A DNA stretch of 64,000 nucleotides from the NCBI RefSeq assembly GCF_039645995.1, contig NZ_CP147920.1:1984001-2048000 (forward strand), in the 5' to 3' direction. This DNA comes from Sulfurimonas sp. HSL3-1 (GTDB lineage Bacteria; Campylobacterota; Campylobacteria; Campylobacterales; Sulfurimonadaceae). Below the pieces are notes generated by a model. It was not told the origin of the DNA. It worked only from the letters and a program-made list of their open reading frames with translations, and searched no databases. Of this stretch, positions 2,725 through 18,689 are shown piece by piece (position 1 is the first letter of the stretch; every line of letters starts with the position of its first letter). The translations under genes and the position numbers were made by a program.

Positions 2725-3129
2725 ATGCTCATCACCCGTGCCAGCGAATACGCCCTGCTCTCGCTCATCGTCCTGGCCAAGGCCGAGAAGCCCCTCGATG
2801 CCGATACCCTCTCGAAGGAACTCGACATCTCCAAAAGCTTTCTCGCGAAGATCCTCCAGTCGATGGCACGCAACGGTATTCTCAACTCCTTCAAGGGCGC
2901 CAACGGCGGATTCGCCCTGGCCAAGGATATGCACGACATCACCGTCAGGGACATTACCTGCGCCGCCGAGGGGAAAAACCCCTCCGTTTTCGACTGCTCC
3001 AAATCCCAAAAAGACTGCCCCTCCGACAAGGCGACTACCTGCCAGATCTGGCCCGTCGTCAACCGGCTCCAGGACAAGATCGACACTTTCCTCGAGAAAC
3101 TCACCCTCGCCGACCTGATCGAACAGTAA
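2725..3129 (+). CDS. Rrf2-family transcriptional regulator with cysteine cluster
   Basis: A 134-residue winged-helix regulator of the IscR/NsrR/RirA family. The N-terminal MLITRASEYALLSLIVLA and the recognition region (SKSFLAKILQSMARNGIL, then GGFALAK) are typical. Cys91, Cys98 and Cys106 (C-x6-C-x7-C), plus Cys79, suggest an Fe-S cluster sensing iron, oxygen or NO. The ATG at 2725 is preferred over 2704 because a GGAAAG site precedes it by 7 bases and the family start aligns. It precedes a DHH phosphoesterase by 16 bases, so the two are probably cotranscribed. The regulated genes are unknown. Confidence 0.9.
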   Translation: MLITRASEYALLSLIVLAKAEKPLDADTLSKELDISKSFLAKILQSMARNGILNSFKGANGGFALAKDMHDITVRDITCAAEGKNPSVFDCSKSQKDCPSDKATTCQIWPVVNRLQDKIDTFLEKLTLADLIEQ

Positions 3130-3145
3130 CCCAAGAAAGGCCATT

Positions 3146-4213
3146 GTGACCATTTACCATCTTTCCCATATCGACCTCGACGGCTACAGCTGCCAGCTCG
3201 TCATGCAGCACACTCCCCACACCATGCATTTTTACAATGCCAACTACGGCGAGGAGGTCCCCGAGCGCCTGCGCCAGATCGTCGAGGCGATCGCGCACGA
3301 ATCCGAGGCGATGATCCTTGTGACGGACCTGAACCTGACCCCCGACGAATCCCGCTGGCTCGACGCCGAGGTCAAGCGCTTCAACGAATCGGGCAAAAAC
3401 GTCACCCTGCAGCTGCTCGATCACCACGGCAGCGGCAAAGAGAGTGCGGCCCGCTATGCATGGTATACGCTCGACACGGACCGCAGCGCCACGAAGATCA
3501 CCTACGAATTTGCCAAAGAGCACGGCTGGCTGCAGGAAGAACCTGCGTGGATGGAGGCCTATGTCGCCGTCGTCAACGCCGTCGACCTCTGGCTGCAGGA
3601 TGAAAGGGAGAATTTCGAATACGGCAAAGTGCTCATGCGCCTCGTCAGCGAGACGCGCGAGCTGGGGCGCACCCTCTTTGCCGAGCAGGACCGCGCCTAC
3701 AAGCTGAGCCTGCTGACCGAAGCCGCGGCGATGATCGCTTTGCCCGACGCCCCGATCGTACTGGACGAAAAGATCCATCTGATGAAAAAGGGGTTTTTCC
3801 GCGAAGAGGAGAACAACACCCTCGACAACCTGGTGACGAAGTACATCGTCTCCCTGATGGGGGCGAAGCGCAAAGAGATGACGATCTACTACAAAGGGTA
3901 CCGCGGCTTTTTAAGCTATGCCGTCGGCAACACCTCCATCATCGGCAACGGCTTCCTCGTCACCTACCCCGAGTATGACTTCATCGTCGACATCAGCCCC
4001 CGCGGGACGATGAGCCTGCGCGCCAACAACCAGGTCGACGTCTCCCTCATCGCCAAAGAGTGGGCGGGCGGCGGCGGACACCCCAACGCCTCCGGGGGCC
4101 GTATCCAGGGCTTCAAAGAGCAGTTCCGCTACGACAAGGTCAAAGCGCAGATCGAGTCGCTGATCGCCAAGCGCGAATCCGTCTCCGGGAAACTGCCGCA
4201 AAAAAGCGAATAG
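3146..4213 (+). CDS. DHH/DHHA1-family phosphoesterase
   Basis: A 355-residue protein beginning at GTG after an AAGAAAGG ribosome site. Motif I is HIDLDGYS (residues 8-15), motif III is LLDHHGSGK, and the C-terminal DHHA1 substrate-binding domain has GGGGHPNASGGR. These metal-binding aspartates and histidines are those of the RecJ/NrnA/GdpP superfamily, which hydrolyses phosphodiester bonds in short RNA, cyclic dinucleotides or pAp. No transmembrane or PAS domain is fused, so it resembles a soluble NrnA-like enzyme; the exact substrate is not decidable here. It converges on the amidase gene with only 4 bases between stops. Confidence 0.88.
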   Translation: MTIYHLSHIDLDGYSCQLVMQHTPHTMHFYNANYGEEVPERLRQIVEAIAHESEAMILVTDLNLTPDESRWLDAEVKRFNESGKNVTLQLLDHHGSGKESAARYAWYTLDTDRSATKITYEFAKEHGWLQEEPAWMEAYVAVVNAVDLWLQDERENFEYGKVLMRLVSETRELGRTLFAEQDRAYKLSLLTEAAAMIALPDAPIVLDEKIHLMKKGFFREEENNTLDNLVTKYIVSLMGAKRKEMTIYYKGYRGFLSYAVGNTSIIGNGFLVTYPEYDFIVDISPRGTMSLRANNQVDVSLIAKEWAGGGGHPNASGGRIQGFKEQFRYDKVKAQIESLIAKRESVSGKLPQKSE

Positions 4214-15923: not shown

Positions 15924-15945
15924 AAAAAAAACGGTTTGCAACCGT
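15924..15945 (-). terminator. Intrinsic terminator of the gap-ATPase-pfkA operon
   Basis: On the minus strand ACGGTT/AACCGT forms a 6-bp stem with a 3-base loop, followed directly by a run of seven U. A second hairpin (CGGGG/CCCCG) lies between it and the pfkA stop. Confidence 0.85.
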
Positions 15946-15992: not shown

Positions 15993-16952
15993 TCAGTCGA
16001 TCAGGTTGATGGCGGAGAGCAGTTCGCTGTCGATCGTGTAGGTGTGGGAAACGACGTCATCGATCTCCATGAGGCCGTAGGCCCCGTCGCGGTAGTAGAC
16101 GACCTTGTTGGCGTCGCGGGAGTGCAGGAGGTGGTCGATGGCGTGGATGACGAACTCAAAGGCCATCAGCCTGTCCGTCACCGTCGGATTCCCCCCGCGC
16201 TGGATATGCCCCAGAATACTCACCCTGGTCTCCAGACCGATGGTCGACTCCAGCCACTCGGCGATCTCGGCGGTCTTGCCGGTTCCCTCGGCGACCACCG
16301 CCAGAATGTAGCCGCGCCCGCCGGCCACCTCTTCGAGCAGCTGCTTCTCTGCGACTTTGATATTGAAATCGGCTTCGGGGATAATGCAGATCTCCGCCCC
16401 GCTGGCCAGGGCGGAAACAACGGCAAGATAGCCGCACTCCCGGCCCATCACTTCGACGACGAAAGCCCGGTCAAAGGTCGACGCGGTATCGCGGATCTTG
16501 TCCAGGGCGTCGCGGATGACGTTGAGCGCCGTATCGACGCCGAGGCAGTAGTCCGTGCCGTAGATATCGTTGTCGATCGTCGTCGGAATGCCGACGAAAT
16601 TGAGCGGGAACTCCTCGCTGAAACGCTGCATCGCACGGAAAGAGCCGTCCCCTCCCAGCACGACGAGCCCCGTAATGTCATACTTCTTGAGATTCTCAAA
16701 GGCCTGTTTGCGGTATTCGTATTCGAAAAAGCGTTTGGAACGGGAGGAGCGGATAATGGCACCGCCGCGGTGCAGGATCCCGGCAACGTCACTGTGGGAG
16801 GCTTCGGTGATCTCGCCGTCGATCATCCCCTCGAGGCCGTGGTGAATGAAGTAGTGCTTCTGCCCGCGCTTGAAGGCGTAATCGACAAACTTCTTGATCG
16901 CGGGGTTCATTCCGGGCGCATCGCCGCCCGAACACATGATGGCCAGTGCCAT
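15993..16952 (-). CDS. pfkA: ATP-dependent 6-phosphofructokinase
   Basis: A 319-residue PfkA. The N-terminal nucleotide loop CSGGDAPGMN, LGGDGSF with Gly103 (the residue that marks ATP rather than pyrophosphate use), the catalytic TIDND with Asp127, MGRECGYLA and GHIQRGG are all present and in register with E. coli PfkA. It phosphorylates fructose-6-phosphate in glycolysis. A complete PfkA is notable because many Campylobacterota, including Campylobacter and Helicobacter, lack a working one. It lies 12 bases downstream of an ATPase gene and in the same operon as gap. Confidence 0.95.
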   Translation of the reverse strand: MALAIMCSGGDAPGMNPAIKKFVDYAFKRGQKHYFIHHGLEGMIDGEITEASHSDVAGILHRGGAIIRSSRSKRFFEYEYRKQAFENLKKYDITGLVVLGGDGSFRAMQRFSEEFPLNFVGIPTTIDNDIYGTDYCLGVDTALNVIRDALDKIRDTASTFDRAFVVEVMGRECGYLAVVSALASGAEICIIPEADFNIKVAEKQLLEEVAGGRGYILAVVAEGTGKTAEIAEWLESTIGLETRVSILGHIQRGGNPTVTDRLMAFEFVIHAIDHLLHSRDANKVVYYRDGAYGLMEIDDVVSHTYTIDSELLSAINLID

Positions 16953-16964
16953 GCGCGCTCCTTT

Positions 16965-17684
16965 TTATTCGTCGACGGTGACGACGTCGCTCCGGATATC
17001 GTTGAACAGCAGGGTCTTGTGGTTCATACGACGCTGATAGAAGAACTGGTTGCGCTTCATGTTTTTGAGCTCGGAGGTGTTATAGTAGTTCGCATTGGAA
17101 CAGCGTCCGAGGAAAAGGAAGGTAAACAGCAGTTTGAGCTGGGCATTCTCGAAGATCTCGTGGGGCTGCGACAGGAACGTGAGCCCGAATTTTTTCATAT
17201 TGATCATGCTAAAGATATACATGAGGAAGTCTTCGAACTTCGTGTAAAAGCCGCCGAGCTGTGCGATCTCATGGAAAAAGTAGTAATAGTTGTCCAGCAG
17301 CTCCTGCTTGGAGATCGTCTGTGAGAGCCGGCTTTTCACATCACGCTTGTTGGAGAAGTGGCTCGGGTTGACCGCGAGGTAGATGTGCTTGCGCGCCTCG
17401 ACTGCCTCGTCGAAGGCCGCGTCAAAGGCATCGCTCTCTTCAAACTGCATGTAGAAGAAGTGCTCGTCTTTGTAGCGCGCTTCAACCTCGTCGATGGCGG
17501 GGTCCGAAAAGTCCATGTAGAGCGTCGGGATGCCGCTGGCGATAACGAACTCGCGGATCTTCGAGGCGAGATTCGTTTTACCCGCACCCTCTTCGCCGAG
17601 GATGAGCGTATTCTTGTCAAGAAGGTCTTCGGAGAGTTTCAGTGACGCAATGCTGCTGTTGCAGTGACCGATAATGCTTTTCAT
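16965..17684 (-). CDS. P-loop ATPase of unknown function between gap and pfkA
   Basis: A 239-residue protein with Walker A GEEGAGKT at about residues 30-37, followed by a strand ending YMDFSD that could serve as an early acidic motif. Further on, GLTFLSQPH in a hydrophobic context recalls the sensor strand of FtsK/HerA-type pumping ATPases. It lacks recognisable DNA-binding or membrane domains, and a clear Walker B (hhhhDE) is not seen. It is 9 bases from gap and 12 from pfkA, so it is cotranscribed with glycolytic genes; no role there is known to me. Confidence 0.75.
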   Translation of the reverse strand: MKSIIGHCNSSIASLKLSEDLLDKNTLILGEEGAGKTNLASKIREFVIASGIPTLYMDFSDPAIDEVEARYKDEHFFYMQFEESDAFDAAFDEAVEARKHIYLAVNPSHFSNKRDVKSRLSQTISKQELLDNYYYFFHEIAQLGGFYTKFEDFLMYIFSMINMKKFGLTFLSQPHEIFENAQLKLLFTFLFLGRCSNANYYNTSELKNMKRNQFFYQRRMNHKTLLFNDIRSDVVTVDE

Positions 17685-17693
17685 CCGCGCTCC

Positions 17694-18689
17694 TTAGTGT
17701 TCACCGACGAACTTGGCCATGTCCATCAGACGCTCGGTGTAACCCCACTCGTTGTCGTACCAGGCCAGCACCTTGACGACGGTACCGTCGATGACGCTGA
17801 GCATATCCGGGACGAAGGTACAGCTGTAGGAGGAACCGACGAAGTCGCTGGAGACGCGCTTGTCGTGGTCGACCTCGACACGGCCCGCATATTCGCCCGC
17901 CGCGGCGGCTTCGAAGGCGGCAATGACCTCCTCTTTGGTTGTCGTTTTTTTCAGGTTGACCGTCAGGTCGACGACGGAGACATCCGTCGTCGGGACACGC
18001 ATGGCGTACCCGTTGAGCTTGCCCTGAAGGTGCGGCATGACCAGGCCGATCGCCTTGGCGGCACCGGTTGTCGTCGGGATCATATTGACCGCCGCCGCAC
18101 GGGCACGGCGCATATCTTTTTTATGTTTAACGTCGAGCAGGTTCTGGTCGTTCGTATAGGAGTGGATCGTCGTCATCAGACCGTTCTCAATCCCGAACGT
18201 GTCATCGAGGATCTTCGTCACCGGCGCCAGGGCGTTGGTCGTACAGCTGGCGTTGGAGATGACGGCTTCGCCCTGGTAACTGTCGGTATTGATCCCGATG
18301 ACGTATGTCGGGGTATCGTCCTTCGCCGGTGCGGACATGACGACCTTTTTCACGCTGCCCTTGAGGTGTTTTGAGGCCGTTTCCGTTGTCAGGAAAACGC
18401 CGGTACACTCGACGACGACTTCCGCGCCCGCTTTGCTGAAGTCCAGGGACTCGGGGTCGCGTTCGCTGAACATCATGACCGGTTTGCCGCCGACCTCGAT
18501 GGTATGCTCATCGATCACTTTCGTATCGATCCCCGTGTGAACGGAGTCGTATTTCAGCAGGTACTCCAGCATATCCGGTTTGGCGGTCGTATTGATCGCC
18601 ACCAGTTCCATATCGTCGCGCTGCGCCGCGATCTTGATCGCGATCAGGCCGATCCGTCCCGTTCCGTTTACCGCTACTTTGATTGCCAT
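17694..18689 (-). CDS. gap: Glyceraldehyde-3-phosphate dehydrogenase, type I
   Basis: A 331-residue enzyme of glycolysis/gluconeogenesis. The N-terminal NAD fold reads VAVNGTGRIGLIA (usually GFGRIGR; here T and L replace F and R), the active-site Cys is in SNASCTTN, and DNEWGYTERLMD closes the protein. It leads the operon gap-ATPase-pfkA. A GAGGAAA ribosome site lies upstream. The substituted GTGRIGL loop is unusual but typical residues for NAD binding remain. Confidence 0.96.
   Translation of the reverse strand: MAIKVAVNGTGRIGLIAIKIAAQRDDMELVAINTTAKPDMLEYLLKYDSVHTGIDTKVIDEHTIEVGGKPVMMFSERDPESLDFSKAGAEVVVECTGVFLTTETASKHLKGSVKKVVMSAPAKDDTPTYVIGINTDSYQGEAVISNASCTTNALAPVTKILDDTFGIENGLMTTIHSYTNDQNLLDVKHKKDMRRARAAAVNMIPTTTGAAKAIGLVMPHLQGKLNGYAMRVPTTDVSVVDLTVNLKKTTTKEEVIAAFEAAAAGEYAGRVEVDHDKRVSSDFVGSSYSCTFVPDMLSVIDGTVVKVLAWYDNEWGYTERLMDMAKFVGEH

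Follow-up and report, generated by a model that had tools for sequence, protein, structure and literature searches.

The EccC domains D2, D3, and DUF are of the FtsK/SpoIIIE type and, as described in the accessible part of PMC11154593, carry degraded Walker motifs and are retained for regulation or assembly. For DUF4297-HerA, the portion of PMC11291478 available to us assigns the arginine finger to an R-K pair (R455/K456) that precedes the sensor strand. In the packaging NTPase B204 of STIV2, the proposed catalytic glutamate (E49) is not the Walker B glutamate, and a Walker B Glu-to-Ala mutant is said to hydrolyze ATP unaffected (unpublished data mentioned in the available part of PMC4124505).

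Gene X, the subject of this study, lies in a stretch of 64,000 nucleotides of DNA from Sulfurimonas sp. HSL3-1 (the window) and encodes a protein whose predicted fold belongs with these ATPases. The Sulfurimonadaceae, in which X is strongly conserved, include common sulfur-oxidizing bacteria. A sequence-only reading of the window had found no obvious reason for a P-loop ATPase among sugar enzymes. On comparing relatives, this puzzle dissolves. The puzzle that remains is a conserved domain of predicted HerA-type fold that has neither the Walker B aspartate nor a fixed neighbor.

The gap-X-pfkA locus

The trio is ordered gap-X-pfkA, with intergenic gaps of 9 and 12 bases (Table 1). This arrangement, described in the sequence-only reading, was confirmed by the coordinates and by the Pfam naming of both neighbors. 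The sequence AAGGAGCG precedes the start codons of both X and pfkA. The trio had also been assigned one promoter and one terminator. A terminator-like hairpin does lie downstream of pfkA, and only this position speaks for it, because a scan for hairpins followed by T-runs found 4 sites where 3.2 were expected in shuffled sequence. No promoter was scored ahead of gap on the minus strand. A TATAAT can be seen there at about 18727–18722 but a clear −35 element is absent, so that a single promoter for the trio is plausible.

X is the single match in its own 2.5-Mb genome. It is a real gene, not a chance open reading frame, and is under strong purifying selection: its dN/dS in comparison with four close relatives is 0.032–0.040, against 0.027–0.030 for gap and 0.022–0.043 for pfkA in the same comparison. 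In a fifth, more distant relative, the dS of X is saturated.

A recent foreign origin of the gene was considered and rejected. The GC content of X (51.7%) is below that of the window (57.5%), yet its GC3 (0.77) is near that of gap (0.79) and pfkA (0.82), so that composition shows no clear sign of recent foreign origin. A 426-codon open frame on the plus strand (window positions 16044–17324) runs antisense to X and pfkA and is likely a by-product of the high GC3, as are other long antisense frames in the window.

Table 1. Features of the gap-X-pfkA locus, with positions counted from the first letter of the window
Feature	Position	Strand	Description
gap, type I glyceraldehyde-3-phosphate dehydrogenase	17694..18689	minus	First gene of the trio; Pfam Gp_dh_N/C
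X	16965..17684	minus	ATG start, 239 amino acids; single-domain HerA/VirB4-like P-loop protein (predicted fold)
Walker A motif GEEGAGKT, residues 30–37 of X	17574..17597	minus	Intact
Degenerate Walker B motif YYYFFHE, residues 133–139 of X	17268..17288	minus	Strand YYYFF, then H138-E139
pfkA, 6-phosphofructokinase	15993..16952	minus	Last gene of the trio; Pfam PFK
Terminator-like hairpin, then T-run	15931..15945	minus	Downstream of pfkA; supported by position only

Predicted fold and active site

The X proteins collected (94) comprise 85 distinct sequences, 80 of which begin with Met. Alignment A2 holds 76 of these 80 together with the window protein and L005, 78 in all, and alignment A3 consists of 50 proteins drawn from the A2 set.

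X matches no curated family in the libraries tried and is unnamed. Its matches in Pfam and NCBIfam are weak P-loop hits that all stay below the curated cut-offs; PF01935 (HerA central domain) scores 13.6 bits on X, below its cut-off of 23.2. PF01935 is nevertheless the Pfam family touched by most X members (56 of 78, weakly), followed by nSTAND3 (47 of 78) and AAA_22 (45 of 78), also weakly. The best matches in PHROGs (E 0.096) and PADLOC (E 0.0025, the GajA ATPase domain) come from libraries used here without a cut-off. Sequence searches of the PDB returned P-loop stretches, both with the single protein (dynein light intermediate chain first, E 0.12) and with the X profile (Hsp104/Clp, best E 5.1e-6 for two stretches summed). 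Judged from titles and abstract openings, none of the Sulfurimonas papers found in PMC on HerA, FtsK ATPase, or glycolysis concerns X.

With hhalign, X was compared with HerA-type, PilT, ABC, and AAA+ proteins. A HerA-like comparison set, which we take to be YjgR/DUF853, aligned with a probability of 78.5 over 54 columns, in which the hairpin, the P-loop, and the strand-2 Asp line up. With the whole of X, ABC (83.3) and AAA+ (84.5) proteins both scored above this set, through 16 P-loop columns. The C-terminal half of X matched no hhalign profile, those of HerA-type proteins included. Because hhalign does not discriminate and this half is unmatched, the kinship of X rests on predicted folds.

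The AlphaFold2 model of X, built with the 78-protein alignment, has a pLDDT of 83.7 and a pTM of 0.86. As the second model, we used that of a relative sharing 61% identity with X (pLDDT 82.3). Both predicted models contain the core fold of the FtsK-HerA superfamily. We compared them with known structures by VIA-align, counting rows within 1 Z as tied. VirB4 (4ag5) superposes with Z 16.2 (rmsd 3.6, 213 residues aligned) on the first model and Z 16.4 (3.8, 217) on the second, and HerA (4d2i) with Z 16.1 (3.6, 213) and 16.0 (3.7, 214), respectively. The first model's list also contains the C-terminal domain of DndH (7es4; Z 16.6, rmsd 3.4, 213 aligned) and TrwB (Z 13.7); neither is among the best 50 rows for the second model, an absence that excludes nothing. 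Foldseek ranks the VirB4/TrwK chain 8rtb_B first, with FlaH and KaiC next. KaiC opens the rows from outside the superfamily (Z 13.2 and 13.1). FtsK (Z 12.9 and 12.6) does not exceed it, and X is therefore described as VirB4/HerA-like, not FtsK-like. Taken together, the two models support a VirB4/HerA-type motor-domain fold. The likeness to FtsK/HerA ATPases that had been read from a single strand, and for which a structure comparison had been proposed, is borne out by the predicted folds, with VirB4 and HerA as the closer matches and not FtsK in particular.

The sequence-only reading had seen a clear Walker A motif but no clear Walker B motif in X, and both observations extend to the 78 aligned proteins. 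The Walker A motif follows the pattern GxxGxGK[ST], and G35, K36, and T37 are present in all 78 aligned proteins. The presumed Walker B aspartate (position 138) is replaced by His in 63 of these proteins and by Gln in 15, and is never Asp, whereas the presumed Walker B glutamate (position 139) is Asp in 49, Glu in 27, and Val in 2. Because the family lacks the Walker B pattern hhhhDE, we report X as a fold relative and not as a canonical member of the superfamily. The presumed arginine-finger site (position 164, with the register judged by sequence) holds Lys in 60 proteins and Gln in 18 and is followed by the invariant K165. D58 at the end of strand 2, E68, and R219 are likewise invariant, and Q173 is found in 76 of the 78. 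Where the HerA-type proteins compared read, for example, YMDE, later KQARAFG, and then STQ, X reads FFHE, NMKKFG, and LSQ. The Walker B and arginine-finger registers were set by eye, from the positions of the strands; a pattern script failed to match 7 of the 23 proteins compared and picked out other stretches in L173 and L193. In the light of EccC and B204, the loss of these motifs suggests weak hydrolysis without proving it; going by the mutant described for B204, hydrolysis need not stop when Walker B residues are lost.

Distribution and genomic neighbors of X

X was found in 21 of 60 genomes, its own included, and the other 20 copies are 56–95% identical to it. A profile search of the order gave strong matches (E below 1e-100) in 28 of 298 genomes, 24 of them in family f1 and 4 in family f7; 25 further genomes gave weak matches only (E 7e-4 or above). 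In a sample of the phylum, X was present at E 1e-4 in 16 of 249 genomes, all of family f1. We call f1 Sulfurimonadaceae after the class of the nearest named record of the window's genus. A scan with one genome per species found 111 relatives; many of the 80 listed are Sulfurimonas or Sulfuricurvum, and the remaining listed relatives bear other campylobacterial names or none. X is thus lineage-restricted and mainly inherited within the Sulfurimonadaceae, with strong matches in four genomes of a second family. Its neighbors track the X tree (9 neighbor changes along the tree, against a mean of 34.6 after shuffling), so that X looks mostly inherited, with few moves.

In the midpoint-rooted tree, L099, L105, and L075 fall together within a clade of Sulfuricurvum type. 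By its coordinates and contig number, L105 is apparently the f7 genome G160, and the grouping suggests a transfer of X between families. In L099 and L105, residue 139, the presumed catalytic-acid position, is Val, a still more degraded site.

Its narrow distribution would also suit a domesticated viral packaging ATPase (B204/A32/PRD1-P9 type) that entered the Sulfurimonadaceae through a single capture in an ancestor. X is similar in its single-domain size to B204 from STIV and STIV2, of whose 202–207 residues 182–187 align (Z 13.9–14.5 with the first model and up to 14.6 with the second), and an A32-like packaging ATPase is its first match in a viral structure library (E 4.8e-5). However, VirB4 and HerA fit the predicted fold better, and no viral gene was recognized among the X neighbors read by eye. 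Viral contigs, phage records, and plasmid records yielded no relative at the sensitivities used, although a remote one would escape such searches. We consider a viral capture very unlikely.

The place of X between gap and pfkA had implied a tie to glycolysis, which the sequence-only reading itself had made dependent on X being present at the gap-pfkA loci of most relatives. This tie did not survive the synteny survey. Of the 21 genomes with X, 6 show the order gap-X-pfkA. They belong to a single genus, and five of these six, the window's included, are at least 94% identical in X; most relatives carry X with other genes. The six retain the tight spacing, and G002, which is of the same genus, shows the order gap-pgi-X instead. 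Within 2.5 kb of X, the 80 listed named loci contain nnrDE (44 loci), thiG (41), kdsD (39), yaeQ (13), acs (11), yebC (10), gap (3), pfkA (2), and pgi (1), and 9 loci contain none of these nine genes. Both named loci with pfkA (L037 and L038) apparently belong to genomes of the window's own genus. Eight neighbor families were checked in Pfam, and the other neighbor names were read from the sequences by eye.

The occurrence of pfkA points the same way. It was found in 19 of the 21 X-bearing genomes, the exceptions being G002 and G036, which gave no pfkA match. Among 16 family genomes without X, 11 have it. A search for pfkA gave 47 matches, and a locus was obtained for 30. X lies beside pfkA in 6 of these loci and was not seen in the other 24 (flanks of up to 1.5 kb, some ending at contig ends). 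From these counts of co-location and occurrence, X is not tied to glycolysis, and the adjacency to gap or pfkA expected of a dedicated glycolytic partner is not conserved across relatives. Because relatives carry X beside quite different genes, its position among sugar enzymes is probably incidental. The tight spacing in six genomes and the gap-pgi-X order in G002 would fit a protein that senses energy and partners with or regulates GAPDH and PfkA, but such a role is extremely unlikely in view of the few named loci with gap or pfkA compared with nnrDE, the two X-bearing genomes with no pfkA match, and the pfkA genes of X-less genomes.

Two further observations concern the pfkA loci. Five of the 30 (L150, L155, L156, L157, and L162) have a same-strand gap gene ∼1.2 kb upstream of pfkA, which leaves room for one gene between them; no X was detected there. 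In G021 (7% contamination), one pfkA piece (L142, on contig C41) is 99% identical to that of the window and a 55% identical copy lies on another contig; the former may be a stray from the window's genus.

The most frequent neighbors raise the question whether X cooperates with the NAD(P)HX repair protein NnrDE or with ThiG, next to which it lies in most Sulfurimonas loci. In 39 of the 44 loci with nnrDE, X is separated from it by 1–4 bases. GAPDH is a known source of NADHX, which would loosely tie both contexts together. The nnrDE context is, however, confined to one half of the midpoint-rooted X tree (39 of 44 rows, against 0 of 34 in the other half). Furthermore, a search of 12 family genomes that lack X found nnrDE in 10, and G011 and G026 carry it directly beside kdsD with no X between. 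A functional partnership with either protein strikes us as very improbable. In L194 (G264, genus g2; positions 2843–3475), where no X was found, purN lies between kdsD and nnrDE, the place of X in related genomes. Replacement of TsaE, which we take to be the small P-loop ATPase beside nnr in E. coli, was considered as well and rejected: a separate TsaE scores above the cut-off in 38 of 38 genomes, X-bearing ones included.

Proposed role and comparison with known systems

The reading we prefer, and to which we give about even credence, is that X is a stand-alone HerA/VirB4-type P-loop protein that acts as a slow ATP switch and not as a pump, is housed in housekeeping operons, and is not a dedicated glycolytic factor. 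X would bind ATP through its normal Walker A motif. With His or Gln in place of the Walker B Asp, and Lys or Gln followed by Lys in place of the trans-acting arginine, it would probably hydrolyze ATP slowly or only with a partner. Instead of pumping processively, X may then switch its conformation with the bound nucleotide, perhaps in a dimer or ring, and would gate a partner whose gene is not a regular neighbor. Its placement in any housekeeping operon available in the genome would give it steady expression. X is probably cytosolic. The window protein is acidic (pI 5.7, charge −6; family range −10 to +2) and aromatic-rich (14.6%), and it contains no strongly hydrophobic 19-residue stretch (maximum 1.2), which fits a cytosolic protein with protein partners slightly better than a DNA pump.

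Alternatively, X could be an active HerA/FtsK-type DNA translocase that uses another catalytic acid (D58, E68, or D/E139). Its predicted fold matches those of DNA motors, D58, E68, K165, and R219 are invariant and Q173 nearly so, and the glutamate proposed for catalysis in B204 offers a model for an acid outside the Walker B motif. In addition, RarA-like genes (cluster 5) occur 33 times and DnaQ-like exonuclease genes (cluster 17) 11 times within five genes of X, as counted in the uncollapsed table with labels given by eye. However, these genes are never immediate neighbors of X in the 85 distinct loci, and the acidity of the protein and the loss of the Walker B Asp throughout the alignment also speak against a motor. 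We regard an active translocase as unlikely.

More speculatively, and with low confidence, X may found an unnamed clade of stand-alone cellular HerA-type proteins in which Walker A is invariant while His or Gln has taken the place of the Walker B Asp and Lys or Gln that of the trans-acting arginine. Such proteins would form a ring or clamp gated by ATP, differ in their metal and hydrolysis chemistry, and be required for a cell process specific to the Sulfurimonadaceae. As a strongly conserved protein of this family without a curated-family match, X would lend itself to testing what becomes of a HerA-type fold when its Walker B Asp is missing. It also warns against inferring function from a tight operon, since gap-X-pfkA is one of several arrangements.

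Among known systems, the motor domain of the type IV secretion ATPase VirB4/TrwK (4ag5, 8rtb) is the best or tied-best match to the predicted fold and shares the Walker A motif. X differs from it in being a lone domain of 239 residues that lacks the Walker B Asp and is 11–15% identical in sequence, and no secretion gene was recognized among its neighbors read by eye. The hexameric translocase HerA (4d2i, PF01935) matches the predicted fold about equally well, but X has no further domains and carries His or Gln in the Walker B motif and Lys or Gln at the presumed arginine-finger position. B204 of STIV2 is, like X, a single domain of FtsK-HerA fold and similar size (Z up to 14.5, rmsd 3.2, 182–186 residues aligned), whereas X is a cellular protein conserved across a family of bacteria. 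The degenerate domains of EccC are parts of one secretion ATPase, and its DUF has, according to the accessible part of the article on EccC, also lost the Walker A motif; in contrast, X stands alone and its Walker A motif is intact.
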